Shown: piece by piece, positions 4,845 through 19,128 of the stretch
Numbering within the stretch: position 1 is the first letter of the stretch
Layout of the letters: every line of letters begins with the position of its first letter
Virus record (IMG/VR): IMGVR_UViG_3300033571_002930
Coordinates: 1-47,941 of that record
Direction: 5' to 3' (one strand)
Length of the DNA: 47,941 bases
From: a virus
Position numbers and translations under genes: made by a program
Notes under the pieces: model-generated
Seen by the model: only the letters and a program-made list of their open reading frames with translations
Databases searched by the model: none
What the model was told of the DNA's origin: nothing

Positions 4845-4875
4845 CAAATTTAGTCATTGCATACCATCCTGCAAA
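4845..4875 (-). promoter_or_regulatory. Bacteroidota-type promoter for groEL
   Basis: On the minus strand a TTTG element (4875-4872, within a T-run) is followed after 19 bases by TAAATTTG (4852-4845), matching the Bacteroidota consensus TTTG/TAnnTTTG. It sits 20 bases before the groEL ATG and overlaps the last codons of the upstream protease gene, so groEL could be transcribed independently of that gene. Confidence 0.6.
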
Positions 4876-5135: not shown

Positions 5136-5149
5136 AAACCAAATTTATA

Positions 5150-5303
5150 CCGAAATGTCGAATTTTTTCTTCCCTATCTCTCTCTCTCTCTCTATTATTA
5201 TTATTATTTTTTTATGACTATAAAAGAAAGAAAAAATCAACATTATTGACATTAGTATTGATAATCAATTAGTTAGTGAAAAATAATCGTCGTAAAAACG
5301 ACA
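5150..5303 (+). repeat. 150-bp imperfect repeat, copy 1 (origin/operator-like)
   Basis: First copy of a sequence that recurs at 16530-16686 upstream of the primase. Shared blocks in order: CGAAATGTC; a pyrimidine-rich run; TTATTATTATTATTTTT; ATGACTATAAAAGAAAGA; AACATTATTGACAT; an inverted repeat ATTGAT-A-ATCAAT (5257-5269); AGTTAGT; and repeated ACGAC units. This copy adds a perfect hairpin GTCGT-AAAA-ACGAC (5289-5302) nested inside TCGTCG...CGACGA (5287-5316). It lies in a gene-free stretch between two minus genes. A binding site for a replication or regulatory protein is likely; the exact role is inferred. Confidence 0.75.
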
Positions 5304-5331
5304 CCACTAACGACGAATTTATACATAATTG

Positions 5332-5362
5332 CAAAAAAAAAGCAGGACTTAGAAAAGTCCCG
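5332..5362 (-). terminator. Rho-independent terminator after the 72-aa gene
   Basis: On the minus strand the stem GGACTT/AAGTCC with loop TTCT is followed by TGC and a run of nine T residues. It lies 28 bases past the stop of the gene at 5391-5609 and separates that gene from the chaperonin cluster. Confidence 0.8.
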
Positions 5363-5390
5363 CCCAAATCAAACGAGTAAAACCACACAA

Positions 5391-5609
5391 TTAAAACACA
5401 AATTTTTTCATATCCTCTGCTCTGTTGATGCCCTGAGCGACGATTTCGATCTTTTCTTGGCGTCTGATTTCCTTCTTCATGTCGGAAATTTGCTTGATTC
5501 CTGTCTGACCACATGGACGATTATTAATCAACATCCCGTCCTTAACAGTCAAACCGTATCCCGAACCCTTTTGCTGATAAATGCTGTTAGACAAATTTAA
5601 TCTTGGCAT
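5391..5609 (-). CDS. Conserved-looking small protein of unknown function
   Basis: A 72-residue basic protein. The N-terminal half has MPRLNLSNSIYQQKGSGYG followed by LTVKDGMLINNRPCGQ, suggesting short beta strands. The C-terminal half, DMKKEIRRQEKIEIVAQG to the end, is helical and charged. I do not recognise a family. It is a stand-alone transcription unit: a TATATTTG box lies 20 bases upstream on the minus strand and an intrinsic terminator lies just downstream. That isolation in the regulatory region suggests an early or regulatory protein, but this is inference. Confidence 0.65.
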   Translation of the reverse strand: MPRLNLSNSIYQQKGSGYGLTVKDGMLINNRPCGQTGIKQISDMKKEIRRQEKIEIVAQGINRAEDMKKFVF

Positions 5610-5629
5610 AGTAAAATATTTTAGTTAGT

Positions 5630-5637
5630 CAAATATA
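5630..5637 (-). promoter_or_regulatory. TATATTTG (-7) box for the 72-aa gene
   Basis: The minus strand reads TATATTTG, a perfect TAnnTTTG box, 20 bases before the ATG at 5609. No TTTG element is found 19-20 bases further upstream, so this is a half match, supported mainly by position. Confidence 0.45.
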
Positions 5638-5771
5638 CACCCTTTTATCGGATGGTTTCCGATGAAAGACTCATTTTATATCAGATGCCATGAATGTGGG
5701 GGTAATATACCCGTTTTGCGATTCGGCACCCGAAATGGAAACCGAAAAAAAAATTAGGGGGTGGGGGATCC

Positions 5772-5916
5772 TTTCGTGTACGCGTCACCGATATTTTGGC
5801 GTTTTCGTGTACGGGTGTGCGTTAGTACATTCGTTTCACCTATCCGTCCCCGTTAGTCCCCTTTCGTCTACGCGTCCCCGTTAGTCAGCCCGTTTCGTGT
5901 GTTCATCCCCGTTAGT
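5772..5916. repeat. Five imperfect tandem repeats of about 30 bp in divergent region
   Basis: Five diverged units starting at about 5772, 5802, 5831, 5861 and 5891, with composite consensus TTTCGTGTACGCGTC followed by CCCGTTAGT. The GTTAGT ends of units 2-5 fall at 5821, 5852, 5880 and 5911, spaced 31, 28 and 31 bases. The block contains no convincing gene and lies between the leftward gene ending its leader near 5640 and the rightward early promoter near 6215. Iterated sites like this are typical of replication origins or of operators for a repeatedly binding regulator; which applies is not decidable here. Confidence 0.75.
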
Positions 5917-5949
5917 ATAACGGCTTCGCATACACGAAAAAAATAAAAA

Positions 5950-6124
5950 ACTAACAAATGTTAGTTAGTTTTCGCATAGGGGCAATACCCCCTCCCAAAA
6001 TTTAGGTTCTTTATTTTTCGTCTATCCCTATCCGTTACTAGCCATTACATTTTCATTTCTAATTTTTTCGCCTATTCATTAAATTATTTCAAATGAAATA
6101 GTTAGTTTTTTAGATGGCATCTAA
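5950..6124. promoter_or_regulatory. Cluster of three operator-like palindromes
   Basis: Three perfect inverted repeats in the AT-rich stretch before the early promoter: ACTAAC-AAAT-GTTAGT (5950-5965), TATTTCA-AA-TGAAATA (6085-6100) and TTAGATG-G-CATCTAA (6110-6124). The first reuses the GTTAGT end of the neighbouring tandem repeats. Their sequences differ, so different proteins may bind. The rest of 5640-6190 shows no gene I can support. Confidence 0.5.
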
Positions 6125-6190
6125 CAAAATAGTCATTTCATTGAATAAAAACGAAATTTTTAATAAAAAACAAAAAAAACACAAAAAAAA

Positions 6191-6222
6191 TTTTGTAGTG
6201 TTAAAATAGTGTCTTATATTTG
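6191..6222 (+). promoter_or_regulatory. Early promoter, Bacteroidota type
   Basis: TTTTG (6191-6195) and TATATTTG (6215-6222) are separated by 19 bases, a full match to the TTTG/TAnnTTTG consensus. Transcription should start near 6228, giving a leader of about 75 bases that carries the first copy of the GAGTGTCTT hairpin before the gene at 6302. Confidence 0.8.
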
Positions 6223-6267
6223 TATTGTCAATCGGGGAAGTAGACACTCCCCAAAAATTAACAAACC

Positions 6268-6287
6268 GAGTGTCTTCAAAGACACTC
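6268..6287 (+). promoter_or_regulatory. Leader hairpin element, copy 1
   Basis: Perfect inverted repeat with 9-bp arms GAGTGTCTT and AAGACACTC and a 2-base centre (CA), preceded by AACC and followed by ACAAAACAAAAGTC and the ATG at 6302. The same element occurs at 6951 and 7974 at the same distance from a start codon. Here an extra AGACACTC (6242-6249) can pair with GAGTGTCT, giving an alternative structure. Confidence 0.8.
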
Positions 6288-6301
6288 ACAAAACAAAAGT
6301 C

Positions 6302-6826
6302 ATGAGCAACAAAAAAACAATTTTTCAGTTCGCAAAGTTCGCACAATTAAATGCAAAATTAAAGCAGTGCGAAGAAACAAAATTTGCAATTTCCATTGAA
6401 ATGGGTGAAGTTCTAAATGTTGATATCCCAAAGTTCAAAACTGATGAAGGCAAGGAATACTACAAGACGCAAGGCAATCCTTACCCAACTATTGAGGAGT
6501 TTATAAAGGGTGAATATAAGATTGAGAAATCATGGGCTTACAAAATAATGAAGGCGGCGAAAATTGACACCCAAACCCGCAAAAATTATGAGGCAATGGA
6601 GAACGCACAAGGCAATACTTGCTCAATCGCAAAGTTCATAAAATTTGCGGAGGGCGGAGAAAGTGAAGGCGAAGGCGAAGGCGAAGGCGAAGTGAAGGAA
6701 CCAAAGGCGAAGCCTCAAATGTTCAAAGCCTCATGCAGTGCGAAGGGCGATATAAAAATATCGGGTACAATATCCAAAGAATTCGCCACCATGCTGATTG
6801 AAGAAATCAAAAAAGCAATCAAATAA
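6302..6826 (+). CDS. Unknown early protein with HTH-like segment and GEGEG linker
   Basis: A 174-residue protein. The start at 6302 was chosen because it lies 14 bases after the leader hairpin; upstream in-frame codons would translate the hairpin. Residues 1-60 are Lys/Phe/Ala-rich (FQFAKFAQLNAKLKQCEETK). Residues 73-104 (TIEEFIKGEYKIEKSWAYKI and following) look like a helix-turn-helix. A linker of repeated GE follows, then a short C-terminal domain ISGTISKEFATMLIEEIKKA. I do not recognise a family. As first gene of the rightward early transcript with an HTH-like core, a regulatory or DNA-binding role is likely but inferred. Confidence 0.7.
   Translation: MSNKKTIFQFAKFAQLNAKLKQCEETKFAISIEMGEVLNVDIPKFKTDEGKEYYKTQGNPYPTIEEFIKGEYKIEKSWAYKIMKAAKIDTQTRKNYEAMENAQGNTCSIAKFIKFAEGGESEGEGEGEGEVKEPKAKPQMFKASCSAKGDIKISGTISKEFATMLIEEIKKAIK
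6665..6692 (+). repeat. GAAGGC hexanucleotide microsatellite within gene
   Basis: Four to five tandem GAAGGC units encode the Glu-Gly linker of the 174-residue protein. Unit-number changes would keep the frame and vary only linker length. Confidence 0.7.
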
Positions 6827-6828
6827 TC

Positions 6829-6857
6829 TTAGGGGCTACGGCCCCTAATTTTTTTTT
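6829..6857 (+). terminator. Rho-independent terminator of first early gene
   Basis: Stem TTAGGGGC/GCCCCTAA with a TACG loop (6829-6848) followed by nine T residues, starting 2 bases after the stop of the 174-residue gene. Confidence 0.9.
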
Positions 6858-6881
6858 CGCACTATCATACTATCATGGCGG

Positions 6882-6931
6882 GCTGTGGTCGGATGAGGTC
6901 GGGTGTGGTGGCGTGCTGTGGTGGGATGCGG
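6882..6931 (+). repeat. G-rich direct repeat
   Basis: GCTGTGGTCGGATGAGG (6882-6898) recurs as GCTGTGGTGGGATGCGG (6915-6931), two mismatches in 17. The stretch 6878-6931 is nearly free of C runs and has many GG pairs. It lies between the terminator and the second leader hairpin; no promoter match was found, so how the downstream gene is transcribed is unclear. Confidence 0.5.
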
Positions 6932-6950
6932 CTACAATTAATTTCAAACC

Positions 6951-6970
6951 GAGTGTCTTTGAAGACACTC
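6951..6970 (+). promoter_or_regulatory. Leader hairpin element, copy 2
   Basis: Arms GAGTGTCTT and AAGACACTC around TG, preceded by AAACC and followed by ACAAATCAAATCAA and the ATG at 6985, a gap of 14 bases as in copy 1. Flanks as well as arms are conserved between copies. Confidence 0.8.
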
Positions 6971-6984
6971 ACAAATCAAATCAA

Positions 6985-7239
6985 ATGCGTACATTATCAA
7001 TCTTCTTTGCAGTGGTCAGTATCTTCTACATGACCATTTCATCCTACGCCATCGTGTCGTGGGATAACACACCCTTTCAAATGCTATTCCTTCAAATGAC
7101 ATGGTCAATGTCGGCAATGTTATTTGGAGTATCTGCTCATAGTATTGGGTGGATAAGAGAAAAATACATGACTGCCATCTTCGTTGGTGGAGTCATGTGC
7201 TTCTTTATGAGCATCTTATACATATTTCATAACCTTTAA
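6985..7239 (+). CDS. Small membrane protein (84 aa)
   Basis: An 84-residue protein beginning MRTLSIFFAVVSIFYMTISS, with three hydrophobic segments at about residues 3-25, 33-53 and 62-83 separated by short polar loops (WDNTPFQ and GWIREKY). The start at 6985 is set by the 14-base spacing to the leader hairpin; a longer frame would run through it. Family unknown. An early membrane protein may act in superinfection exclusion or in altering the host envelope, which is inference. It is followed 11 bases later by a lipoprotein gene. Confidence 0.7.
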   Translation: MRTLSIFFAVVSIFYMTISSYAIVSWDNTPFQMLFLQMTWSMSAMLFGVSAHSIGWIREKYMTAIFVGGVMCFFMSILYIFHNL

Positions 7240-7250
7240 TTTCAAGTAAA

Positions 7251-7421
7251 ATGTCAAACAACGAGAAAATCAGCCACAACTTAACCCTATTGCTAATTGC
7301 CTGCATCGCCATGATGGTCGCACTATCATCGTGCGGCTACATTAAAAACTGCCGAAATGCCAAAGGCTGCCCAAACAATGCGTGCTTTGGTTCCAAAAGA
7401 TCGGGATTAATTGGATACTAA
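7251..7421 (+). CDS. Small lipoprotein (56 aa)
   Basis: A 56-codon frame, ATG at 7251 to TAA at 7419-7421. Residues 11-27 are a hydrophobic signal segment (LTLLLIACIAMMVALSS) followed by Cys28 in LSSCGY, a lipobox-like signal peptidase II site. The mature part has three more cysteines (CRNAKGCPNNAC). It should be lipid-anchored to the cell envelope. The stop overlaps the start of the next gene (TAATG). A small lipoprotein expressed early next to a membrane protein fits a superinfection-exclusion role, but there is no direct evidence. Confidence 0.65.
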   Translation: MSNNEKISHNLTLLLIACIAMMVALSSCGYIKNCRNAKGCPNNACFGSKRSGLIGY

Positions 7422-7657
7422 TGGAAACGACAAACTGCGTAAAATGTGGCGGGGCTATGCCGTTGCTCCGCCTCACGAGGTACGGCTACAAGAACTGCGT
7501 GAACTGCTCAAATGTTCAGCGTGTCGGTGGCGTACCCATCACGAACCACAAAACAGGCAACACGATACAGGTGGTGCCTCGGGATGTGGCTGACAATATA
7601 ATCAGATTATCCCAACGCAAAGGGTACGGCGTATGCAGTGGGATGAAACATAATTGA
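7421..7657 (+). CDS. Zinc-ribbon protein (78 aa)
   Basis: A 78-residue protein with the start at 7421 fixed by a TAATG overlap with the lipoprotein gene. Cys6-x2-Cys9 (NCVKCGG) and Cys26-x2-Cys29 (NCVNCSN) form a probable zinc ribbon at the N-terminus, with TRYGYK between them. The rest, VGGVPITNHKTGNTIQVVPR and then a helix ending GYGVCSGMK, resembles a conserved small phage protein I recall but cannot name. It could bind nucleic acid or a host protein. A strong hairpin follows the stop. Confidence 0.7.
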   Translation: METTNCVKCGGAMPLLRLTRYGYKNCVNCSNVQRVGGVPITNHKTGNTIQVVPRDVADNIIRLSQRKGYGVCSGMKHN

Positions 7658-7658
7658 A

Positions 7659-7678
7659 TAGTACGCTTTAGCGTACTA
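7659..7678 (+). promoter_or_regulatory. Perfect hairpin between genes
   Basis: TAGTACGC-TTTA-GCGTACTA, 8-bp arms, two bases after a stop codon and 22 bases before the next ATG. No T-run follows, so it is a weak terminator candidate. It may protect mRNA ends or act like the leader hairpins nearby. Confidence 0.55.
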
Positions 7679-7700
7679 CGAAACCATAAAATCAAATCAA

Positions 7701-7877
7701 ATGCAAGACGCGTATCAATTAGCCATCAACATCGTCAGGGATTGGACTGACAAGCAGGTGTGTGAATACCTAAACTTGAACTACTACGACTATGACGATG
7801 AGGACATGTACGATTTAAGGTATCATGCCACCATCCAAAAGGCAGAGCAACTTTTGGAACAAAATATAGTGGCGTAG
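7701..7877 (+). CDS. Small acidic protein (58 aa)
   Basis: A 58-residue acidic protein from ATG 7701, preceded by the A-rich leader ATCAAATCAA typical of this region. Begins MQDAYQLAINIVRDWTDKQ, has the acidic-aromatic segment NYYDYDDEDMYD and ends with a helix TIQKAEQLLEQNIVA. No family recognised. Two short amphipathic helices flanking an acidic patch would fit a small inhibitor or DNA-mimic-like protein, but that is speculation. Confidence 0.6.
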   Translation: MQDAYQLAINIVRDWTDKQVCEYLNLNYYDYDDEDMYDLRYHATIQKAEQLLEQNIVA

Positions 7878-7899
7878 AACAAAATAACACCCAAATAAA

Positions 7900-7931
7900 T
7901 TTGGATGTTATCTTAATATGTGCTATATTTG
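7900..7931 (+). promoter_or_regulatory. Bacteroidota-type promoter before the 423-aa gene
   Basis: TTTG (7900-7903) and TATATTTG (7924-7931) with 20 bases between. Transcription from near 7937 gives a leader of about 70 bases that carries the third hairpin element. It likely drives the gene run from 8009 onward. Confidence 0.8.
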
Positions 7932-7973
7932 TGTATTATTAGTAATTAACCACACATTTTCTATTCCTTAACC

Positions 7974-7993
7974 GAGTGTCTTTGAAGACACTA
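7974..7993 (+). promoter_or_regulatory. Leader hairpin element, copy 3
   Basis: GAGTGTCTT-TG-AAGACACTA: the last base of the 3' arm differs from the other copies, leaving 8 pairs. It is preceded by TTAACC and followed by ACAAATCAAACAGTT and ATG at 8009, a 15-base gap. Confidence 0.8.
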
Positions 7994-8008
7994 ACAAATC
8001 AAACAGTT

Positions 8009-9280
8009 ATGAACTACTCTGAAAGTTTCAGGGCTTTCCTCTGCGAGAAGCGAGAGGAGAGCAAGATTGCAAGCCTACTGCATGAGTGCGTATGGCTTAA
8101 AAGGAGTCAATACAATGCCTACAAGTTGGCTGTGACTGACAAGGAAATTGACTACCTCACGTTCAGAAATGACGGAACAATCAGTTTCCTACCCGCAGGT
8201 AAGGAGCACAAGGTCAATGACCAAGGTGATTGGTCAAGAGAAGGTCGCCAAAATGGTCGCCCCTCTCGTGTTATCCGTAAGGTCCTCACACCTAAGGCAC
8301 AGAAGCGGTTCAAGGACACTGACTACGAGGTGTTCGCAAGGTTCTACCAAGCCAAGTGTGAGGCTGAGGCGAAGACATTTGTCATCAAGCCGAACACAGC
8401 CATCCCCGATGTGTACTGCGAGAAAAGGGAGGACGGAGGTGCCTCGCTCAACGGCTCGTGTATGAATGGGGACAGGGACTACCTCACATTCTACCACCTC
8501 TTTGACGTTGACATCCTATGTATGTACAACAACGAGGGATTGCTATCGGGTCGGGCATTGCTGTGGCGACTGCCTGAGGGCAAGACGTTTATGGACAGGG
8601 TGTATGTGGCTCGGGAGCATTACTATGAGATGTTCATTGACTATGCTCGGGACCAAGAGAATTGGTTTTGGAAGAAGAACTACAAGTCCTATGACGACAA
8701 GCGTATGTTCATGTCTAACGAGGGTGAGTTTGAGAAGAAGCTGATTGTGTGGACGAAGAACAAGGGAGAAGCAGAGTGGGACTACTACCCATACATAGAC
8801 ACGTTCTCAAATGGTGACTACAACTCCCTCAATAATTACGGCAGTGGCGAATACACCTACAATGATACGGGCGGTAGCAGAGAGGGTGACACAAGGTGGA
8901 TGGAGTGCTGTGTGTGTGGGCGTGAGTATCCCGAGGATGAGATGTACTATGTTGACAGAGGTCAGTATCGGGGTGAGTATGTGTGTGACAATCACGCTAT
9001 ACATGTGGGAGGTAATGTGTGGACCACTCATGACGAGGATACTCATATCGTGCAGGTCAGTGGGGATTGGTATGAGAAGGACGATGACGATATCAGATAC
9101 CTTGACGATGAGGGCGAGTGGGTACTTGCCGATGACGCTGTGTACTGCGAGAGAGACGAGAAGTATTACAGGACCGAGGATTGCGTAGAGGACTACGAGG
9201 GCAATTGGATACTAAGAACTGAGGCGTATGAAGTAAATGGGGACTATTATCATGAATCAATCGTAAATAAAGTAGCATAA
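8009..9280 (+). CDS. Large early protein of unknown function with C-terminal cysteine motif
   Basis: A 423-residue protein; start at 8009 chosen by the hairpin spacing. The N-terminal two thirds contain SGRALLWRLPEGKTFMDRVY and EHYYEMFIDYARDQENWFWK, which I recall from uncharacterised phage proteins. Near residue 300 a CCVCGREYPEDEMYYVD segment with a later VCDNH suggests a zinc site. The last 120 residues are acidic with repeated short units of the form YYxxEDCVxDYEGNW. Fold and activity unknown. It is followed 2 bases later by the M20-like peptidase gene, so the two are co-translated and may act together. Confidence 0.75.
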   Translation: MNYSESFRAFLCEKREESKIASLLHECVWLKRSQYNAYKLAVTDKEIDYLTFRNDGTISFLPAGKEHKVNDQGDWSREGRQNGRPSRVIRKVLTPKAQKRFKDTDYEVFARFYQAKCEAEAKTFVIKPNTAIPDVYCEKREDGGASLNGSCMNGDRDYLTFYHLFDVDILCMYNNEGLLSGRALLWRLPEGKTFMDRVYVAREHYYEMFIDYARDQENWFWKKNYKSYDDKRMFMSNEGEFEKKLIVWTKNKGEAEWDYYPYIDTFSNGDYNSLNNYGSGEYTYNDTGGSREGDTRWMECCVCGREYPEDEMYYVDRGQYRGEYVCDNHAIHVGGNVWTTHDEDTHIVQVSGDWYEKDDDDIRYLDDEGEWVLADDAVYCERDEKYYRTEDCVEDYEGNWILRTEAYEVNGDYYHESIVNKVA

Positions 9281-9282
9281 TT

Positions 9283-10299
9283 ATGGAACGACTAAAAGAG
9301 GTACTCTCTATACAATCAGAGAGCTACGACCAATGGAGAATGTTTGCGTACATCGTAAGGCGTGTCAAGGCGATACCAAACACAACAATATACACACATA
9401 ACGGCAATATCTACGTGACCAAGGGCGACGCCATCACATATCCATGCATGGTGTCACACATGGACACAGTTCATGACATTGTTGAGGACCTGCATCCTAT
9501 TGAGTTTGATGGGCTGATTACGGGCTTCAATAGGGTGAGGATGGAGCAGACGGGTATCGGTGGCGACGACAAGGTCGGTGTATACATCACCCTTGAGATG
9601 TTGGAGCGGTTTGACGTGATGAAGGTGGCGTTCTTTCGCGACGAGGAGGTGGGGTGTAACGGCTCGTATGTGGCTGACATGACCTTCTTTGAGGATTGCA
9701 GGTTTGTGTTGCAGTGTGACCGCAAGGGTAATGATGACTTCGTGACGGTGGCAAGTGGTGTCGACCTCAGCTCCTGTGACTTTCAAGAGGCGGTGAAGCC
9801 CATCATCAGCAGGCATGGGTACAAGTTTGCTCAGGGGATGATGACCGATGTTATGGCGTTGAAGCAGAATGGTATCAAGTGTTCAGTCGCCAATATGTCG
9901 TGTGGCTACTACCGACCTCACATGGCTGACGAGTATGTCAATGTGTGGGACGTAGAGGATTGCTTACAGATGTGCATGACTATCATCTCTCAGTGCACTG
10001 CGGTGTACTCGCACAAGTACCGGTACAAAGCGCCGTCATATACCAAAGCGCCACCCGCTCCCAACGGCAAGTATGCCGTCAAGACACTTTGGGACGATGA
10101 CTACGTGGAGGTGAAGCAAGCCAAAAAGATTGAGGACGACTACTACTTCGGGTGGGATGATTGGGATTGGGACAAGGACGTGCCGAAGGAGCCATACGGC
10201 AGTGTGTGTCAAGATTGTTGGGGCGACGTGATACACGATGAGAAAACCAAGCTGTGCAAGTCCTGCCACTCGTGGTACAAGAAGGCAAATTATATATAA
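9283..10299 (+). CDS. M20/M28-like zinc aminopeptidase with C-terminal zinc ribbon
   Basis: A 338-residue protein with the ordered site residues of di-zinc M20-type peptidases: His59 and Asp61 in SHMDTVHD, Asp95/Asp96 in GIGGDDKVG, Glu121/Glu122 in RDEEVGCNGS, Asp146 in QCDRKGND and His213 in YYRPHMADEY. Such enzymes hydrolyse small peptides or amide bonds. The large lid domain found in peptidase T appears reduced. The tail adds CQDCWGD...LCKSC, a zinc ribbon. Substrate unknown; host peptides, a signalling peptide or a modified nucleobase amide are all possible. It is separated by 2 bases from the gene before it. Confidence 0.85.
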   Translation: MERLKEVLSIQSESYDQWRMFAYIVRRVKAIPNTTIYTHNGNIYVTKGDAITYPCMVSHMDTVHDIVEDLHPIEFDGLITGFNRVRMEQTGIGGDDKVGVYITLEMLERFDVMKVAFFRDEEVGCNGSYVADMTFFEDCRFVLQCDRKGNDDFVTVASGVDLSSCDFQEAVKPIISRHGYKFAQGMMTDVMALKQNGIKCSVANMSCGYYRPHMADEYVNVWDVEDCLQMCMTIISQCTAVYSHKYRYKAPSYTKAPPAPNGKYAVKTLWDDDYVEVKQAKKIEDDYYFGWDDWDWDKDVPKEPYGSVCQDCWGDVIHDEKTKLCKSCHSWYKKANYI

Positions 10300-10317
10300 C
10301 CAATAAACAAACAAAGT

Positions 10318-11165: not shown

Positions 11166-11210
11166 ATAAAAAAAACGTGGAGCCACCACATAAAAAACTG
11201 TACAAGTATT

Positions 11211-11570: not shown

Positions 11571-11581
11571 AACCAAACAAC

Positions 11582-11827: not shown

Positions 11828-11838
11828 ATCAAATTACA

Positions 11839-12087: not shown

Positions 12088-12091
12088 ACAT

Positions 12092-12292: not shown

Positions 12293-12602
12293 AATTGACG
12301 TACAGAAACGAGACGTCTACGAAATTGAAATGAAGGGTGGCGACTTCAGAGAACTGTATGGTGTTATCGGCAACAACTGCACCTGCTTCTGCGCACCTAT
12401 AAGGTTTGACAATGACGACACCATGTTCTCGGATGACGAGATACTTCTTCGCCCCAACGACATTGTGGGCGGGTTCATAATGCCCTATTGGTCATATCCC
12501 ATCTACAACAATGCGGTCATCATAGGCGCTGATGACGAGGGTGACAGCGTAAGCGCCAAGTCAGATATCAATGAAATTAAAAACCAAATCACATTCATAT
12601 GA
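12279..12602 (+). CDS. Unknown protein (107 aa)
   Basis: A 107-residue protein; start at 12279, where ATGAGAGC overlaps the end of the previous gene; an earlier in-frame ATG would extend the overlap. Begins MRAIKIDVQKRDVYEIEMKG, has a cysteine cluster NNCTCFCAPIRF (Cys33, 35, 37 region) and a strand-rich middle part with GGFIMPYWSYPIYNNAVIIG, resembling a small beta protein. Stop overlaps the SprT-like gene start (ATGA). Function unknown. Confidence 0.65.
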   Translation: MRAIKIDVQKRDVYEIEMKGGDFRELYGVIGNNCTCFCAPIRFDNDDTMFSDDEILLRPNDIVGGFIMPYWSYPIYNNAVIIGADDEGDSVSAKSDINEIKNQITFI

Positions 12603-13039
12603 CACTACAAGATGCTGAGGACTTGGCGTTTGAGCTGATGCTTGAGCATGGTCTCATAGACATCGGTTGGACGTTCAAGTTTGACAATGCCCGTCGCAGG
12701 TTCGGCGTGTGTAACTACACCAAGAAACGCATTGGCTTGTCAGCACCGCTGACAAAAATCAGGGAGCCTGACAACGTACGAAACACTATATTGCACGAGA
12801 TTGCTCACGCCTTGGTAGGCAGGGGGCATGGTCACGACAGCGTATGGCGTAGCAAGGCCATTGATATTGGGTGCAACGGACAGCGCTGTTCAAACGATGC
12901 GACCATCAAGGGCAAGTGGGTGGCAGTGTGTCCTGCGGGACACACCCACTACAAGCACCGACGACCTAGAGCCAACTCATCATGCGGGCTATGCAGTCCC
13001 GTGTACAACGTAAAATATAAACTAAACTATTCAACTTAA
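12599..13039 (+). CDS. SprT-like zinc metalloprotease
   Basis: A 146-residue protein with HEIAHALVGRGHGHD: His66, Glu67 and His70 of the zinc site, with His77 or His79 as the likely third ligand, followed by a C-terminal ribbon with Cys residues near 92-110 and CGLC near the end. This arrangement matches the SprT-like family, related to Spartan proteases that cut DNA-protein crosslinks. A phage copy could remove host proteins from DNA. It starts in an ATGA overlap and ends directly before the methyltransferase ATG, so both are coupled. Confidence 0.85.
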   Translation: MTLQDAEDLAFELMLEHGLIDIGWTFKFDNARRRFGVCNYTKKRIGLSAPLTKIREPDNVRNTILHEIAHALVGRGHGHDSVWRSKAIDIGCNGQRCSNDATIKGKWVAVCPAGHTHYKHRRPRANSSCGLCSPVYNVKYKLNYST

Positions 13040-14008
13040 ATGAGACACGGATCCTTATTCAGCGGTATAGGCGGCTTTGACTTGGCTGCCGAGTGGATGG
13101 GTTGGCAGAACGTATTCCATTGTGAGTGGATGCCATTCCCCCGACAGATATTAAAACATTATTGGCCAAACGCAATCTCTTATCATGACATTACTCAAAC
13201 AGACTTCACTATTCACAGAGGATGTATTGACATCCTTACAGGTGGCTTCCCCTGCCAACCCTACTCACTCGCAGGAAAACGACTCGGCAAAAACGATGAG
13301 CGCCACTTGTGGCCTCACATGCTTAGAGCTGTTCAAGAAATTAGACCAACCTACGTCGTGGGCGAAAACGTTCGTGGCATCTTTAATTGGTCAGGAGGGT
13401 TGGTATTCGAAGAGGTGTGTGCTGACTTGGAAGGTTGCGGCTACGAAGTACAACCGATATTACTTGCAGCTGCAAGTGTCGGTGCGCCGCATCGCAGAGA
13501 GCGATGTTGGTTCGTTGCTACCGACTCCATGTCGCTTCGACTACAACACGGCGAGGAGTCAGGAGAAGTGGGACGCAGACAAGCAGAAGTACAAGGACAA
13601 GGGGGTCAACCTTCAGATGCCACTCAAGCAGATGGCGAAGTTTCGTATGCTTCCGACACCGACAGCTTTCGACAGTTCATCGTCAGTAGGGACAATGAAG
13701 TCAACGCAAGTGAAGGATGGCAGTATGCACAGCATGACGCTGAGTCGGTTGGCATCAAAAGATGGTGGGAAGAGTTCCCAACTCAACCCCCGCTTTGTGG
13801 CGGAGATGATGGGCTTCCCACCGAATTGGACGGAATTACCTTTTCAAGGTGGCGCAAAGAGTCAATAATGGGTTACGGCAATGCGATTGTACCGCAAGTG
13901 GCCTATAAAATATTCAAAACAATAAACGATTTACATGACGATACTTCTAATAATATCAGTATGCTACGCAGTAGTAGCAATAATAATAGGAATAAAAAAC
14001 AGAAATGA
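13040..14008 (+). CDS. DNA (cytosine-5-)-methyltransferase
   Basis: A 322-residue C5-MTase transferring methyl from S-adenosylmethionine to cytosine in DNA. Motif I is SGIGGFDLAAEWMG (8-21), motif IV GGFPCQP with catalytic Cys72, motif VI ENV (112-114), motif VIII HRRERCW (151-157) and motif X GYGNAIVPQVAYKIF (278-292). The target-recognition region (about 160-275) is low in hydrophobic residues, unlike most. That region is also read in the +1 frame by a 227-codon gene. No cognate restriction enzyme is adjacent, so self-protection against host restriction is the likely role. The tail after motif X is Asn/Ser-rich. Confidence 0.95.
   Translation: MRHGSLFSGIGGFDLAAEWMGWQNVFHCEWMPFPRQILKHYWPNAISYHDITQTDFTIHRGCIDILTGGFPCQPYSLAGKRLGKNDERHLWPHMLRAVQEIRPTYVVGENVRGIFNWSGGLVFEEVCADLEGCGYEVQPILLAAASVGAPHRRERCWFVATDSMSLRLQHGEESGEVGRRQAEVQGQGGQPSDATQADGEVSYASDTDSFRQFIVSRDNEVNASEGWQYAQHDAESVGIKRWWEEFPTQPPLCGGDDGLPTELDGITFSRWRKESIMGYGNAIVPQVAYKIFKTINDLHDDTSNNISMLRSSSNNNRNKKQK
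13185..13868 (+). CDS. Gene nested in +1 frame of the methyltransferase
   Basis: A 227-codon frame wholly inside the methyltransferase gene, starting at ATG 13185 and ending just where motif X begins. The product looks protein-like: MTLLKQTSLFTEDVLTSLQV, then LTCLELFKKLDQPTSWAKTF, GQEGWYSKRCVLTWK and two LLPTP/LPTP motifs, ending NPRFVAEMMGFPPNWTELPF. I recall proteins with this set of motifs next to or fused to phage Dcm-type enzymes, sometimes annotated as hypothetical. It is rich in Trp, Leu and Pro, unlike the host frame here. A role with the methyltransferase is inferred. Whether both frames are translated needs data. Confidence 0.7.
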   Translation: MTLLKQTSLFTEDVLTSLQVASPANPTHSQENDSAKTMSATCGLTCLELFKKLDQPTSWAKTFVASLIGQEGWYSKRCVLTWKVAATKYNRYYLQLQVSVRRIAESDVGSLLPTPCRFDYNTARSQEKWDADKQKYKDKGVNLQMPLKQMAKFRMLPTPTAFDSSSSVGTMKSTQVKDGSMHSMTLSRLASKDGGKSSQLNPRFVAEMMGFPPNWTELPFQGGAKSQ

Positions 14009-14017
14009 TTAATTAAC

Positions 14018-14116
14018 AGCGGAGAGTACTTTGCCTTGTACCCTTGCATCGGGGTTGGCTCAGACATAGTTGTCCTGACTTTGGTTCCGCTAGGTTCTTC
14101 ATACCATAAGGACAGC
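14018..14116 (+). ncRNA. Possible structured RNA between methyltransferase and next gene
   Basis: The 165-base gap 14009-14173 has higher GC than other gaps and strong pairing potential: hairpin TCAGACA-TAGT-TGTC-C-TGA (14060-14078); AGCGGA (14018-14023) with TCCGCT (14086-14091); and GTTGTCCT (14069-14076) with AGGACAGC (14109-14116). The last two pairings cross, as in a pseudoknot, and the hairpin competes with the last one. No tRNA features (no GGTTCRA T-arm). It could be a small RNA or a 5' regulatory element of the gene at 14174. Confidence 0.35.
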
Positions 14117-14173
14117 AGGTGCGCGGGAACTGCGAGAGTGCCACTTTTATTAACAATCAAAAAAACAAATACA

Positions 14174-14452
14174 ATGACATTCAATCACGATGTGGATTCA
14201 ACAACAGAAGCCTTGGGTATAAACCAATCTGATTTTAGTAAGCATAACGAAGACTTAGTTTCCTTCGTAATTAAAGACGCTTTCTTTGGGAAGGAGTCGC
14301 CTAGGATGAGCATGATTGCTGAATATATACACAAAAACTTCGACTATAACGAGATACTTTTCATGGCTACAGTAGTTTCATATGAAAAGATTGCTGACGC
14401 CACTAAATTGGCTACAAAACAAATAGATAAACTTTTTGGTAAAGATAACTAA
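14174..14452 (+). CDS. Unknown helical protein (92 aa)
   Basis: A 92-residue protein; start at 14174 after the A-rich leader AAAAAACAAATACA; a longer frame would translate the structured gap. Begins MTFNHDVDSTTEALGINQSD, mostly helical (AEYIHKNFDYNEILFMATVV) and ends KLATKQIDKLFGKDN. No family recognised. The promoter for the next gene lies in its last codons. Confidence 0.65.
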   Translation: MTFNHDVDSTTEALGINQSDFSKHNEDLVSFVIKDAFFGKESPRMSMIAEYIHKNFDYNEILFMATVVSYEKIADATKLATKQIDKLFGKDN

Positions 14453-14466
14453 ACTCACTATCTTTG
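14435..14466 (+). promoter_or_regulatory. Promoter for the replication/recombination genes
   Basis: TTTG (14435-14438) and TATCTTTG (14459-14466) with 20 bases between, a full Bacteroidota consensus match, overlapping the end of the upstream gene and 22 bases before ATG 14488. Likely start of the DnaA-like, annealing protein, exonuclease and SSB-like transcript, which ends at the terminator at 16499. Confidence 0.75.
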
Positions 14467-14487
14467 CACTAATTAACAATCAATCAA

Positions 14488-14796
14488 ATGAAACGAGATG
14501 TATTTAACGAGTATGTGGACATCATCATTCGCAAGTACCACATAACGAGGGAAGAGCTTTTCTCCAAGTCAAAGAAGTCTGATATCGTAGACGCAAGACA
14601 GACGCTGTACTACCTATGCTACCACCGACCTATGCAGGTCAACTTCATCAATAGGTGCATGGCTGACAACGGGTATGAGACGGCGCACACCACCATCATG
14701 CGTGGCATAATAGCCATGGATGAGAAGATGAGAGCGGACGCAGACTATTCCAACATGGTTCACAAGATTCAGGATGGATTATCATTAACTTCATAA
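14488..14796 (+). CDS. DnaA domain IV-like DNA-binding protein
   Basis: A 102-residue protein whose order of motifs matches the DNA-binding domain IV of DnaA: YHITREELFSKSKKSDIVDA (basic loop and helix), ARQTLYYLCYHR, and AHTTIMRGI in place of the DHTTV signature. DnaA domain IV binds 9-mer boxes at replication origins. There is no AAA+ ATPase here. It is first in the transcript that includes the annealing protein, exonuclease and SSB-like genes, which fits a role in initiating or directing phage replication. A second such protein is at 24938. Confidence 0.8.
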   Translation: MKRDVFNEYVDIIIRKYHITREELFSKSKKSDIVDARQTLYYLCYHRPMQVNFINRCMADNGYETAHTTIMRGIIAMDEKMRADADYSNMVHKIQDGLSLTS

Positions 14797-14809
14797 AATC
14801 AAATCAAAC

Positions 14810-15388
14810 ATGAGCAATTCAGTTTTTCAGACGCTGTCCTCCGTCAACATGAAGGACAAGGTTGAGCGCAAAGGTCAGCTCGACTACATTTCTTGGGCCA
14901 ACGCATGGGCCGTGTTGAAAGCCCACTACCCTGACGCACAGCGTAAGGTGTACGAATGCGATCAAACAGGATTCAACTACTTCACCGATGGGCGTACCTG
15001 TTGGGTAAAGGTGGGCATCACAGTCAACGACTTAGAACACATTGACTTCCTGCCCGTCATGGACTTCAGAAACAACGCCATTGGCGTAGACAAGGTCACC
15101 TCTATGGATGTGAACAAGACCATTCAGCGTAGCACAGCAAAGGCTATCGCTATGCACGGACTTGGTATATTCCTTTGGACAGGAGAAGATATACCTGACG
15201 CCGACACGCCTGTAGCCGAGCCAAAAGAACTTGAGGTGTTGTCACCCAAGTCTGACAATTGGGAGAAGGTGAAGGTATACATACAAGCCAACAAGGCTTT
15301 GGGCGTAGACAAGATTGTTGCCCAACTATCACGAAAGTATAAAATCACCGCTCCTGTTCAAAAGGAGATTAACCTGCTTGTAAAATGA
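14810..15388 (+). CDS. Rad52/Sak-type single-strand annealing protein (DUF1071)
   Basis: A 192-residue protein with the DUF1071/Sak-type core: FQTLSSVNMKDKVERKGQLD, YISWANAWAVLK, TMDVNKTIQR-like (TSMDVNKTIQRSTAKAIAMH) and GLGIFLWTGEDIP. These proteins anneal complementary single strands during phage recombination and replication. The C-terminal 55 residues are less conserved and may contact SSB. The stop overlaps the exonuclease start (ATGA), so annealase and nuclease form a coupled pair. Confidence 0.88.
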   Translation: MSNSVFQTLSSVNMKDKVERKGQLDYISWANAWAVLKAHYPDAQRKVYECDQTGFNYFTDGRTCWVKVGITVNDLEHIDFLPVMDFRNNAIGVDKVTSMDVNKTIQRSTAKAIAMHGLGIFLWTGEDIPDADTPVAEPKELEVLSPKSDNWEKVKVYIQANKALGVDKIVAQLSRKYKITAPVQKEINLLVK

Positions 15389-16119
15389 GCCAAATAATTG
15401 AGACGCTTAAAAACGACGCAGAGTACTACAGCGGACTCGGCAAGAACTACCTCTCCAATTCTGACATCGGGGCCTTGCTTACTAACCCACAAGACTTCAG
15501 AAAGCCGAGGGAGGACAACAAGTCTTTTGCCGAGGGCCGTCTGTTCCATCAGTTATTGTTGGAGCCACACAAGGCCGTCGACTTCAAGATGGTTGACGTG
15601 AGTACACGCACCACCAAGGAGTACAAGAACTTCTGCGAGGACAACAACATAAAGTTCGCCCTACTGAAGAAGGAGGTTGACGATGTGTATAAAATGGTGT
15701 CGGTTATCAAGAGCAATATTGTTTTCTTTGATGAGATATACAAGCACGGCAACAACTACGAGAAGCCCGGTATCGGTGAGATTAAGGGTGAGATGTGGAA
15801 GGGCAAGTGCGATATCGAGACAGACACCATGCTCATTGACCTCAAGACGACAAGTGACATCAACAAGTTCAGGTACTCAGCCAAGTCGTACAACTACGAT
15901 TCGCAGTGTTTTATCTACGAGCGATTATTTGGCAAACCTTTGGTCTTTTTTGTCATAGACAAGGAATCACATCAGTTGGGTATTTATAGGCCAACAGAGA
16001 GCTTCCTACGAGGCGGAGAGGCTAAGGTTGAGAGGGCTGTTGATGTATACCGCAGGTATTTCAGTCAAAATGCCACCGACGACATCTTGAATTACTACAT
16101 CGAGGACACGCTCGACTAA
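15385..16119 (+). CDS. RecE-like PD-(D/E)XK exonuclease (PDDEXK_1 type)
   Basis: A 244-residue nuclease. Visible site residues are His55 in LFHQLLLEP, Asp143 in GKCDIETD, Asp152 and Lys154 in LIDLKTTSD and Gln174 in YDSQCFIYER, the pattern of RecE-like/Cas4-like PDDEXK_1 exonucleases. It should digest one strand of double-stranded DNA and make single strands for the annealing protein encoded just upstream, with which it overlaps by 4 bases. The two form a phage recombination system like RecET or Red in logic. Confidence 0.88.
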   Translation: MSQIIETLKNDAEYYSGLGKNYLSNSDIGALLTNPQDFRKPREDNKSFAEGRLFHQLLLEPHKAVDFKMVDVSTRTTKEYKNFCEDNNIKFALLKKEVDDVYKMVSVIKSNIVFFDEIYKHGNNYEKPGIGEIKGEMWKGKCDIETDTMLIDLKTTSDINKFRYSAKSYNYDSQCFIYERLFGKPLVFFVIDKESHQLGIYRPTESFLRGGEAKVERAVDVYRRYFSQNATDDILNYYIEDTLD

Positions 16120-16139
16120 GATACTTTGTACTGCGTTCA

Positions 16140-16177
16140 GGCGCAAGGATTCGGTACGAAGATTAACAGATTGCGCC
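16140..16177 (+). promoter_or_regulatory. Leader stem-loop before the SSB-like gene
   Basis: GGCGCAA (16140-16146) and TTGCGCC (16171-16177) form a perfect 7-bp stem closing a 24-base loop. It ends 19 bases before ATG 16197, in a 77-base gap, so it could tune expression of the abundant SSB-like protein. A near-consensus ATACTTTG lies at 16120-16128. Confidence 0.4.
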
Positions 16178-16196
16178 AATATTTAAACCATTTAAG

Positions 16197-16478
16197 ATGA
16201 CAGAAGAAAAAATCTTCGCAGACGGATTCCTCTTCAAGAGGAACGAAAACGCCCCTGACTTTGTCGTGGGCAGATTATCAATGAAAGTTGATGAAGCCAT
16301 TGCCTTCATGAAGAAGCATGACAAAGGCGGTTGGGTAAACATTAACATCAAGCAGGCACGTAGTGGCAACTACTACTCTGAGTTGGACACTTTTGAAGCC
16401 AAGCCTAAGGCTGATGCCAAGACAGCGCCCGCTTCTAAATCCAAAAAGGTACAAGAGGACGCCGACTTGCCGTTCTAA
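16197..16478 (+). CDS. SSB-like protein with acidic C-terminal tip
   Basis: A 93-residue protein. The first 66 residues form a compact strand-rich region (FADGFLFKRNENAPDFVVGR, SMKVDEAIAFMKKH, GWVNINIKQARSGNYYSEL), then a flexible Ala/Lys linker and a final EDADLPF. The tip DLPF closely matches the acidic tail used by bacterial SSB to recruit partners. I recall similar small phage proteins of unknown class. It lies after the annealase and exonuclease genes and is followed by a strong terminator. SSB function is inferred from tail and context. Confidence 0.65.
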   Translation: MTEEKIFADGFLFKRNENAPDFVVGRLSMKVDEAIAFMKKHDKGGWVNINIKQARSGNYYSELDTFEAKPKADAKTAPASKSKKVQEDADLPF

Positions 16479-16498
16479 GTATCAGAAAAACCCAAAGC

Positions 16499-16523
16499 AA
16501 AGGGGAGTTCGCTCCCCTTTTTT
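16499..16523 (+). terminator. Rho-independent terminator with TTCG tetraloop
   Basis: AAAGGGGAG-TTCG-CTCCCCTTT followed by further T residues, 21 bases past the SSB-like stop. It ends the recombination transcript just before the repeat and primase gene. Confidence 0.92.
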
Positions 16524-16529
16524 ATTCAT

Positions 16530-16686
16530 GTCGAAATGTCAATTTTCTTCTTCTATACTTTTTTTATTATTCTCTTATTATTATTATTATTTTTATGGCT
16601 ATAAAAGAAAGATAAAATTAACATTATTGACATAGTAATTGATTATCAAATAGTTAGTAAAATAATTCCGACATAAAACCGACACA
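16530..16686 (+). repeat. 150-bp imperfect repeat, copy 2, upstream of primase
   Basis: Second copy of the sequence at 5150. Shared blocks: TCGAAATGTC, a TTATTATTATTATT tract, ATGGCTATAAAAGAAAGA, AACATTATTGACAT, the ATTGAT-T-ATCAAA near-palindrome (16638-16650) and AGTTAGT. This copy ends with CCGACA at 16668, 16679 and 16690, exactly 11 bases apart, the third one inside the first codons of the primase. An AT-rich tract next to iterons spaced one helical turn is origin-like; it may also be the primase operator. Confidence 0.78.
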
Positions 16687-19128
16687 ATGCCGACACATAA
16701 TGTCACTATATTCCAAAATATAAGGGAGACTTCGACTCCATTCTTCAGAGATGTCAACGATATCTTAGAGAGGATAAAGGACGGAGCCACCAAGGATCTT
16801 GTAAACAAGATTAGATTGGAGAAGAGGAAGGCTGAGAAGAACGAACTAAAAAAGAGTTTGCCTGCAATATGCTTCAGCGGTACTTTCAACAAGAGGGCGG
16901 ACAACTCACTGATAGACCACAGCGGGCTCATATGCTTGGACTTCGATGGGTATGAGAAGCAGAAGGAGTTGTTGCAGGAGAAGGAGAGGCTGAGCAAAAA
17001 TAACTATGTCTATTCAGTGTTCATATCTCCTTCAGGGAATGGCCTAAAGGCATTGGTAAGGATACCTAAGGACCCTGAGAACCACTCCAACTACTTCAAT
17101 AGTCTAGAGAAGTACTTTAACTCTCCATACTTTGACAAGACAAGCAAGAACCTAAGCCGTGTATGCTACGAGTCATACGACCCACTGATATACATCAACG
17201 AGAACTCGTCAATATGGGACCTAATTGAGGAGCACGAGTACACTGAGGTTAACAAGTTCAAAGACCAACCTACCATACCTATTACCGACGAGAATAAGAT
17301 TGCCGAGATACTTGTTAAGTGGTGGTCTAAAAAGTATCCGATGAGCGAGGGCCAACGCAATCAGAACTGTTACATACTTGCTATGGCATTCAATGATTTT
17401 GGTGTCAACAAGGGGCTCGCCTCATATGTGCTGAACCAATACTCATCATCTGACTTTACCTCTAGAGAGATATCTACCACGATAGATTCTGCGTACAAGA
17501 ACACGATGAACTTCGGTACTAAGTACTACGAGGACGAGGAACGCATCAATCACATAAAGGCGAAACTACGCAGGGGTGTATCAAAAAAGGAGGTGCGACT
17601 GCAATTGCAGGAGAGTGACTTAGAGCCCGAGATTATAGACGCAGTGCTCAATAAAGTAGAGGAGGAGAACTCTAAGCAGATATTTTGGACCATAAACGAC
17701 AGGGGAGTCATAAGAGTGGTACACATATTGCTTAAGCAATTCCTAGAGGACAATGGGTTCTACAAGTTCTATCCCGAAGGAGGCAAGAGTTATATCTTCG
17801 TAAAGGTTACAAACAACTTGGTAGACCATACTTCCGAGAAGGAAATCAAAGACTTTGTCCTCAACCATTTATATGAGCTTGACGACATATCAATCTATAA
17901 TTACTTCGCTGACAATACTAGATTTTTTAAGGAGGAGTTCCTTTCGATGCTATCTACCATTGATATTTATTTCATTGAAGATACTAAAGACGCAGCTTAT
18001 CTATACTATAAGAACTGTGCTGTAAAGATTACCAATGACGAGGTAAAGCCTATAGACTACTTGGACTTGGGTGGCTATGTGTGGAAAGACCATGTCATAG
18101 ACCGAAACTTCACTATGTGCAGCGTAACCGATGACTGCGACTATCGTAAGTTCATATCAAACATATGCGGAGGCGATGAAGGTCGTATAAAATCAATGGA
18201 GTCGACTATTGGGTTTATGCTTCACGCACACAAGAACCTTTCCTTTTGCCCCGCAGTTATACTCAATGACGAGGTCATCAGCGACAATCCTGAGGGAGGC
18301 ACCGGGAAGGGTCTTTTCATGAATGCGCTGAGTAAGATGAAGAAGGTAGTAACCATTGACGGAAAGTCGTTCACCTTTGAGCGGTCGTTCGCCTATCAGT
18401 TGGTATCAGCAGACACGCAGATACTTGTCTTTGATGACGTGAAGAAACACTTTGACTTTGAGCGCTTGTTCAGCGTAGTTACCGAGGGGCTGACGCTTGA
18501 GAAGAAGAACAAGGACGCCATCAAAATTCCGTTCAGCAAGTCTCCTAAGATTGCCATCACCACCAACTACGCCATCAAGGGAGCGGGCAACTCGTTTGCT
18601 CGTCGCAAGTGGGAATTGGAGTTACACCAATACTACAGCAAGGAGTTTACTCCTCTTGATGAGTTTGGTAAGCTGATGTTTGGCGATTGGAACGATGACG
18701 ATTGGTGCGAGTTTGACAACTACATGATTGGTTGTTTATGCGGATATCTTAATACGGGACTTGTCAAGAGTAAGTTTGTTAACTTGAATATCAGGCAGTT
18801 ATCAGCAGAGACGTGCCACGAATTTATAGAGTGGTGTGGGCTTATTGAGAATGGCGCCAATCACTCAATATTGCAGACAGGAGTAAGGCTATACAAGAAC
18901 GACTTGTACTATGAGTTTATCAACGAGTATCCTGACTATGGACCAAAGTCAAAGATGACAATAAGCAGGACAAAGTTTTATAAATGGTTAGTATCTTACG
19001 CTATATTTAAGGAGGGCACTGTGCCTGAGGAGGGACGTGACCAAGTAGGCAGATGGATAATAATAAGAAAAAAGAATGACCATGAATACAAAGCAGATTC
19101 TGCACATAGCGATGATGAACTCTTTTAA
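16687..19128 (+). CDS. Primase-helicase with VirE_N/BT4734-like N-terminus
   Basis: An 813-residue replication protein. Residues 30-150 form a VirE_N/BT4734-like primase domain: LPAICFSGTFNKR, LDFD (84-87, metal-binding), VFISPSGNGLKALVRI and SRVCYESYDPLIYIN. A helical region follows (WWSKKYPMSEGQRNQNCYIL). The C-terminus is an SF3-type helicase: Walker A GGTGKG near 537, Walker B ILVFDD (579-584), ITTN near 623 and ARRKWE near 638. It would unwind and prime phage DNA. The gene starts inside the third CCGACA iteron, so its expression may be coupled to origin binding. Confidence 0.92.
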   Translation: MPTHNVTIFQNIRETSTPFFRDVNDILERIKDGATKDLVNKIRLEKRKAEKNELKKSLPAICFSGTFNKRADNSLIDHSGLICLDFDGYEKQKELLQEKERLSKNNYVYSVFISPSGNGLKALVRIPKDPENHSNYFNSLEKYFNSPYFDKTSKNLSRVCYESYDPLIYINENSSIWDLIEEHEYTEVNKFKDQPTIPITDENKIAEILVKWWSKKYPMSEGQRNQNCYILAMAFNDFGVNKGLASYVLNQYSSSDFTSREISTTIDSAYKNTMNFGTKYYEDEERINHIKAKLRRGVSKKEVRLQLQESDLEPEIIDAVLNKVEEENSKQIFWTINDRGVIRVVHILLKQFLEDNGFYKFYPEGGKSYIFVKVTNNLVDHTSEKEIKDFVLNHLYELDDISIYNYFADNTRFFKEEFLSMLSTIDIYFIEDTKDAAYLYYKNCAVKITNDEVKPIDYLDLGGYVWKDHVIDRNFTMCSVTDDCDYRKFISNICGGDEGRIKSMESTIGFMLHAHKNLSFCPAVILNDEVISDNPEGGTGKGLFMNALSKMKKVVTIDGKSFTFERSFAYQLVSADTQILVFDDVKKHFDFERLFSVVTEGLTLEKKNKDAIKIPFSKSPKIAITTNYAIKGAGNSFARRKWELELHQYYSKEFTPLDEFGKLMFGDWNDDDWCEFDNYMIGCLCGYLNTGLVKSKFVNLNIRQLSAETCHEFIEWCGLIENGANHSILQTGVRLYKNDLYYEFINEYPDYGPKSKMTISRTKFYKWLVSYAIFKEGTVPEEGRDQVGRWIIIRKKNDHEYKADSAHSDDELF

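Follow-up and report, generated by a model that had tools for sequence, protein, structure and literature searches.

A duplicated repeat array with an IHF-type site, a probable replication origin in a phage group with DnaA-like proteins

Phage origins have rarely been defined beyond a few model hosts. In the satellite phage P4, two sites, ori1 and crr, are bound by the alpha primase-helicase, and cooperation of distant repeat arrays is known from both P4 and R6K. The left DnaA-oligomerization region of E. coli oriC comprises the DNA unwinding element (DUE), R1, the IHF site IBS1, R5M, tau2, I1, and I2, as laid out in an excerpt of PMC10380432, and in iteron plasmid origins disturbed phasing can inactivate the origin, as stated in an excerpt of a review (PMC5043065). 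Here we describe an element of about 150 bp that occurs twice in IMG/VR virus record IMGVR_UViG_3300033571_002930, the full 47,941 nucleotides of which were analyzed and are referred to as the window. The element had been noticed in an inspection of the sequence (the original prediction) as a possible origin or shared operator. We conclude that each copy is probably an iteron/IHF-type replication origin, so that there would be two per genome, and that the copy next to the primase gene may be an operator as well.

Anatomy and conservation of the two copies

The duplication and its shared order of blocks were correctly described in the original prediction, including the coordinates. Positions 5151 to 5304 and 16532 to 16685 are 82.5% identical over 160 bp (blastn, E about 6e-33), and local alignment of 5100-5330 with 16480-16720 gives a score of 166, compared with a maximum of 32 in 300 dinucleotide shuffles. 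We refer to the distal copy as copy 1 (5150-5305) and to the primase-proximal copy as copy 2 (16528-16696); both are on the plus strand. A model built on relatives, described below, matches copy 2 at 16600-16696 (59.5 bits) and copy 1 at 5217-5305 (52.9 bits), the next best match in the window reaching 9.5 bits.

Each copy begins at its left end with inverted repeat units, read in the sequence and seen also on the map of the relatives' inverted units: one in copy 1 (GACAT on the minus strand, 5152-5159) and two in copy 2 (ATGTCGAAATGTCA, 16528-16541, minus strand). The CGAAATGTC block is this GACAT repeat, inverted. A pyrimidine/TTATT tract follows (5170-5229 and 16543-16615), which its sequence and computed stability mark as a candidate DUE. 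To its right, at conserved positions on the plus strand, stands a repeat pair 9 bp apart (CAACAT at 5238-5243 and TGACAT at 5247-5252 in copy 1; TAACAT at 16619-16624 and TGACAT at 16628-16633 in copy 2), and 15 bp after the second GACAT there is a site that fits the IHF consensus (AATCAATTAGTTA, 5263-5275, and TATCAAATAGTTA, 16644-16656, both on the plus strand). The right block consists of plus-strand repeats 11 bp apart: CGTCGT (5288-5293) and CGACAC (5299-5304) in copy 1, and three CCGACA repeats (16668-16695) in copy 2. The latter start at 16668, 16679, and 16690, and the third makes up codons 2 and 3 of the primase open reading frame (ORF; ATG at 16687); the iterons thus do repeat every 11 bp and run into the first codons, as had been proposed. 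Copy 2 does lie directly before a primase-helicase gene (16687-19128, plus strand), the product of which matches BT4734-like_N and DUF5906 in Pfam and PHROG 28855 and 18375.

Primase loci numbered 80 in all; 73 had more than 175 nt upstream, which gave 66 distinct upstream sequences for alignment, and a sequence-only model was built on 57 of these copies 2. In most of them, the region before the primase starts with a terminator-like hairpin; next come TGACGAAAATGTC as an inverted pair, CCCTAT, a CTCTATATATA/TTATT tract, AATTGACATAATCGACAT, AATCA-N4-GTTA, and CGACATAAAACCGACAT up to the start codon. The most constant columns of the 57-sequence alignment are the repeat pair and the ATCA and TTA letters, and the conserved unit is [CT]GACAT. 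The search of whole records covered 50 of the 80 loci, with one copy 1 match kept per record. The model matched at least one place in all 50, and in 37 of them a second match, oriented like copy 2, was found 7.8 to 14.4 kb upstream of it (4.8 kb in G017, a contig that appears to be incomplete and across whose ends the distance was measured). In the 13 records without a distal copy, the sequence upstream of copy 2 is no longer than 10.4 kb; the distal copy is present in 37 of the 37 records that reach far enough. A lack of the blocks in relatives had been named as one of the findings that would speak against the prediction, and the blocks are kept. Beside copy 1, 7 of the 37 records have an inverted extra match, a back-to-back layout that was excluded from the counts.

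A second set consisted of 29 records of at least 29 kb that had not been used before, taken from 80 listed of 108 pattern matches. The primase is present in 16 of them: both copies occur in 11, copy 2 alone in 2 (which extend no more than 9.5 kb upstream), and copy 1 alone in 3 (G058, G072, and G076, primase 66 to 68% identical). The site next to the primase has degenerated in these three; G058 and G072 retain its inverted units and a single CGACAT at the start codon. Thus, copy 1 is more constant than copy 2, even though copies 2 served to train the model. MW202828.1 (Podoviridae sp. isolate ctfjg026) also has two elements, 10.9 kb apart, together with a 78% identical primase and both DnaA-like genes described below. 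No match to the element was found by a DNA similarity search of a phage collection, no element by an exact-pattern search of genome contigs, and no description of it by literature searches. As a separate observation, many of the fragments stop no more than about 2 kb from an element (G051, G053, G055, G060, G062-G064, G067, G068, G070, and G079), perhaps because the two copies broke the assembly or because of the manner in which the DNA ends.

The original prediction also named a palindrome, TTGATNATCAA. It is present in both window copies, but only in 5 of 76 copies 2 and 3 of 37 copies 1, and it was dropped as a binding site because relatives do not conserve it. What is conserved in its place is ATCA-N5-TTA (61 of 76 copies 2 and 28 of 37 copies 1), which fits the IHF consensus. 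The strict form of this published consensus is matched by 33 of 76 copies 2 and by 25 of the 37 copies 1; a relaxed form, with A or G at the sixth place, is matched by 61 and 29, respectively. Shuffled sequences fit in 1.6% and 2.0% of cases.

Around the AATCA-N4-GTTA core, the repeat pairs lie at about -25/-16 or -35/-26 and the right units at +25, +36, and +47, with some at +15, and 61 inverted units were counted between -120 and -101 in 72 relatives. The distance from the second GACAT to the core is 14 or 15 bp in 65 of 93 distinct copies and 24 or 25 bp, one helical turn longer, in 17; the remainder have another distance (2), no pair (5), or no core (4). The direct repeats with helical spacing that are expected of an origin are therefore present (11 bp in the right block and 9 bp in the left pair), and the consensus match together with the 14/15- or 24/25-bp spacing suggests a site for a bending protein in phase with them.

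Such close similarity of the two copies as in the window is a peculiarity of the source phage (G001 has the largest value among the representative records); in most relatives, the copies match each other mainly in the repeats, the IHF-type core, and the tract. Permutation tests, with one record per primase group below 90% identity, indicate that copies within a genome are more alike than copies from different genomes (1 in 20,000 permutations with the source phage included, 24 records; without it, 25 in 20,000 for the whole element and 364 in 20,000 for the right half alone, 23 records). Such concerted change fits a shared binding protein, and it also fits gene conversion. The units are GACAG in both copies of G038 and AACAG in both copies of G057. 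Covariation of repeat letters with residues of the DnaA-like proteins, judged by eye, was dropped, as there were too few independent cases.

Further members were found by the model among 15 loci from assembled genomes with more distant primases. L277 (46% identical primase) has inverted GTCC units, an AT core, and GGACA units 9 bp apart; from this GGACA pair it is 15 bp to AATCAAATAGTTA, after which comes a further pair. In L279 (45% identical primase), AAAGTGTT units are followed by TATCAAATAATTA and then by AAAGTGTTGCG units 11 bp apart, the repeats of this locus reading AAAGTGTTGC. Thus, the layout is kept while the sequence of the repeats changes, as would be expected, on this comparison of sequences, of a site that co-evolves with its binder.

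Melting tract and candidate binding proteins

Duplex stability and GC skew were computed for five whole records. All 10 copies in the five genomes have 100-bp stretches within the least stable 0.32% of the genome, and the least stable 100 bp of the genome lie at copy 2 in three, at copy 1 in one, and elsewhere in the fifth. In the 62.4-kb record of the source phage, the least stable 100 bp of the whole are at copy 2, and near copy 1 of G001 the least stable 100 bp fall within the bottom 0.06% of the genome. An adjacent AT-rich, easily melted tract, another expected part of an origin, is therefore present.

Two proteins encoded in the window each appear to have a DnaA DNA-binding domain, an assignment that for P0001 is confirmed by the predicted fold. 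P0001 (14488-14796, plus strand, 102 amino acids, host-type promoter at 14436) is a stand-alone DNA-binding protein of the DnaA domain IV type that matches Bac_DnaA_C above the cutoff. Its AlphaFold model, for which 43 of the 56 distinct homologs found served as input, has a predicted local distance difference test (pLDDT) score of 92, and its nine best Foldseek matches are all DnaA, the first being the DNA-binding domain of M. tuberculosis DnaA with DNA (template modeling score 0.79 to 0.84). P0002 (24938-25441, plus strand, 167 amino acids) has a helix-turn-helix of the DnaA domain IV type, which scores 26.6 bits, under the cutoff of 31.5, and is assigned from the family alignment, and a C-terminal extension; many members of its family have a KDHTTI-type motif. 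Homologs of P0001 and P0002 were found in 43 and 46 of the 50 records, respectively. P0001 is missing from seven records; six of these extend no more than 1.7 kb upstream of copy 2, and in the other one, G006, the expected site falls across the record ends.

DnaA boxes read TTATNCACA. P0001 supplies a domain IV protein encoded together with the putative origin, as in a DnaA/oriC system. On the other hand, no AAA+ initiator was found, as only the DNA-binding domain was recognized in P0001 and P0002, and there are no DnaA boxes among the conserved repeats, the unit being [CT]GACAT and AATCGACA only partly box-like. Because of these two negative results, we do not file the element under DnaA/oriC, although its mode of action may resemble that of oriC or of an IHF-dependent iteron origin. 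The primase was modeled with respect to a repeat-binding domain (39 of 40 selected sequences as input), and the model was unusable (pLDDT 45.7). A P0002-like DnaA domain protein is also encoded by the cultured Olleya phage Harreka_1 (L266, 18010-18447); in the 36 kb covered there was no model match and no IHF-type core cluster with GACA/TGTC units.

Among the candidates for the binder of the repeats, P0001, P0002, and the primase-helicase, we rank P0001 first and the primase-helicase second. We infer a course of events that extends from the start of replication at these sites to the identity of the binder, the bending by IHF/HU, and the division of labor between the copies. A phage initiator would bind the GACAT repeats, and a host IHF/HU-like protein would bend the WATCAANNNNTTR site between the two repeat blocks. 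The bend would let initiator complexes from both sides meet; the resulting stress would melt the neighboring pyrimidine/TTATT tract, at which the phage primase-helicase would be loaded. Copy 1, retained even in records in which copy 2 has degenerated, would serve as the main origin, and copy 2 would be a second origin or a helper site, where the initiator might also restrain transcription of the primase.

Alternative readings and genomic setting

What supports the origin reading is conservation, helical phasing, duplex instability, the IHF-type site between the repeat blocks, and the DnaA-type proteins; the original prediction is supported in part, its own check by skew being ambiguous. The proposed check by cumulative GC skew gave a minimum 0.7 to 2.1 kb to the right of copy 1 in all five records. 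However, genes diverge there, and the minimum follows gene orientation; GC skew was therefore dropped as proof of an origin. For minus-strand genes, the coding-strand skew at third positions is 0.085 to 0.240 in the right half, not lower than in the left (0.034 to 0.143), and thus gives no sign of a replichore border; nor does third-position skew change at the half-way point expected for bidirectional replication from copy 1. These skew results weigh against an origin, and so do several others. The strict IHF consensus used here is that of E. coli, and the 10-bp step in spacing may stem from a few inherited insertions. L278 has GCAACACTT repeats and no clear core, and L272, L273, and L275 (56 to 66%) have no element directly before the primase in the primase-proximal region, the only one covered. 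Near the elements of L277 and L279 there is no clear P0001 homolog (best E values with the A3/A4 profile, 0.055 and 0.08); thus, the DnaA-like protein may not be the binder, and the primase-helicase or another protein stays a candidate. Finally, the primase has no visible host-type promoter, so a promoter role of copy 2 has to be considered.

The Bacteroidetes sigma-A promoter has the form TTG-N-TAnnTTTG. If both copies were phage-specific promoter/operators, at which a regulator such as the DnaA-like proteins together with IHF/HU would switch on or repress two rightward blocks, this would account for their shared orientation and for their position, each before a rightward block. It would also suit copy 2, which lies between an intrinsic-terminator-like hairpin with a T run (16501-16525, plus strand; present in 51 of 66 distinct upstream sequences) and the primase start, since TAnnTTTG precedes the primase in only 1 of 63 upstream regions (shuffle mean, 4.1) and P0001 in 37 of 55. 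The hairpin and the near absence of a host-type promoter imply that the primase is transcribed from inside copy 2 or by read-through: copy 2 could still hold an unusual primase promoter, or the primase could rely on read-through, and copy 2 may on the same grounds be an operator. However, to the right of copy 1 are the 3' end and the terminator of a small leftward gene (5391-5609, minus strand), and a leftward terminator-like site is found there in 28 of 37 relatives (1.3 in shuffles); the first rightward genes have a host-type promoter of their own at 6193. The TAnnTTTG element at the left of copy 1 (5147, minus strand; 34 of 37, shuffles 5.8) is outside the repeats and serves the leftward gene (ORF 4854-5135, minus strand). 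Copy 1 is therefore not simply the promoter of a gene that follows it, as it is flanked by leftward genes on both sides and turns its stronger arm toward a gene end. In L277 and L279, a TTG-N-TAnnTTTG promoter stands between the element and the primase, separate from the element, which we count in favor of an origin; in copy 2 itself, the repeats reach the primase start codon and leave no space for a downstream promoter. For a promoter, there would be no need for the genome's least stable DNA or for one-turn phasing at a bend site. We consider it rather unlikely that promotion or repression is all that the two copies do.

Repeat arrays with IHF sites are also known in attP and in partition sites, and the element might thus be a cis site of another transaction (a partition site or centromere, a packaging start, or an integration site, i.e., an attP with IHF and arm sites). 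Two copies 8 to 14 kb apart would be unusual for attP or pac, and the neighboring primase, Sak, and exonuclease genes point to replication; this reading seems improbable to us. A recent functionless duplication or gene conversion in the source phage would explain why no other representative record has copies as similar as those of the window, but it is already contradicted by the presence of the blocks in all testable records and by the strong constraints on their positions, and we give it almost no credence. Mainly because the layout, the helical phasing, and the instability persist as sequence, gene context, and promoter position change, the anatomy fits an iteron/IHF-type origin better than a promoter.

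Beyond the origin reading, we tentatively put forward a broader model, which we regard as doubtful: a split initiation machine, widespread in Bacteroidetes phages, in which DnaA DNA-binding domains without an AAA+ motor would mark the repeat/IHF arrays and the primase-helicase would melt and prime. The arrays would cooperate over 8 to 14 kb, one as origin and one as helper and primase operator, with the sequence of the repeats free and the bend-centered geometry fixed. For a phage group with many environmental relatives, the comparative data yield an origin architecture that is precise and can be tested. They also suggest that a DnaA DNA-binding domain can act in the control of replication when the ATPase is absent, and the two-copy layout offers a way to ask how far-apart repeat arrays cooperate.

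The window belongs to a phage genome: IMGVR_UViG_3300032290_000471, which matches it with 99.99 to 100% identity, carries a terminal repeat of 123 bp and can be closed to a circle of 62,236 bp. Environmental relatives of the phage group number in the hundreds (393 tblastn-confirmed stretches); viral contigs are rich in close primase relatives, 78 to 83% identical among the matches listed. The phage family is aquatic and probably infects Bacteroidetes. Among the assembled-genome contigs with the primase, L267, L268, L269, L270, L271, L272, and L281 are labeled Aliivibrio, Pseudomonadales, or Gammaproteobacteria, and others sit in Bacteroidetes bins; the proteobacterial labels may be binning errors. 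To the left of copy 1, beyond ORF 4854-5135, the minus strand encodes GroEL (3221-4825) and a GroES-like protein (2174-2530), a pair that is also annotated in MW202828.1. A repeat-rich stretch at about 5740-5930 (CCCCGTTAGT and TTCGTGTACG-like units) separates the small leftward gene from the first rightward gene; it lies about 250 bp ahead of the host-type promoter at 6193. In one of 39 copy 1 regions scanned (L263, G074), a tRNA-Arg gene (TCT, 298-372) stands directly after copy 1, in the direction of the element. The gene before copy 2 (16197-16478, plus strand) encodes a small protein with no family match, the DADLPF end of which we take to be an SSB-like acidic tip. The rightward blocks also contain genes for a SprT-like protein (12599-13039) and a PAPS-reductase-like protein (21217-21957), both on the plus strand.

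Likeness to described origins

MW202828.1 belongs to the same phage family as the source phage, and no origin is annotated in the stretch of it examined. The two-copy arrangement resembles ori1 and crr of P4, two repeat-sharing cis sites that are separated by kilobases in a replicon encoding its own primase-helicase; unlike in P4, the primase comes from a different family, and its binding to the repeats is only a candidate function. Phage lambda ori, with its O iterons, is similar in having repeated initiator sites in a phage with its own initiators (an excerpt of PMC5043065), but the repeats of the phage described here extend no further into the primase gene than its first codons, and no O or P homolog was named among the proteins scanned in general family scans. 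With pSC101 and R6K gamma the element shares direct repeats one helical turn apart, an adjacent AT-rich region, and a presumed bending protein, as far as the same excerpt describes those origins (PMC5043065). Unlike in these plasmids, the phage repeats flank the IHF site and are mirrored at the left, there are two copies, and no Rep-type initiator was identified. Compared with E. coli oriC, the phage repeats are short GACAT units, the proteins lack the AAA+ domain, there are two copies, and IHF is assumed. On the other hand, the succession of an AT-rich TTATT tract, binding sites, an IHF site, and more sites in the same orientation is that of the left half of oriC as presented in the excerpt of PMC10380432, and the DnaA-type DNA-binding domains, here encoded by the phage, are a further likeness.

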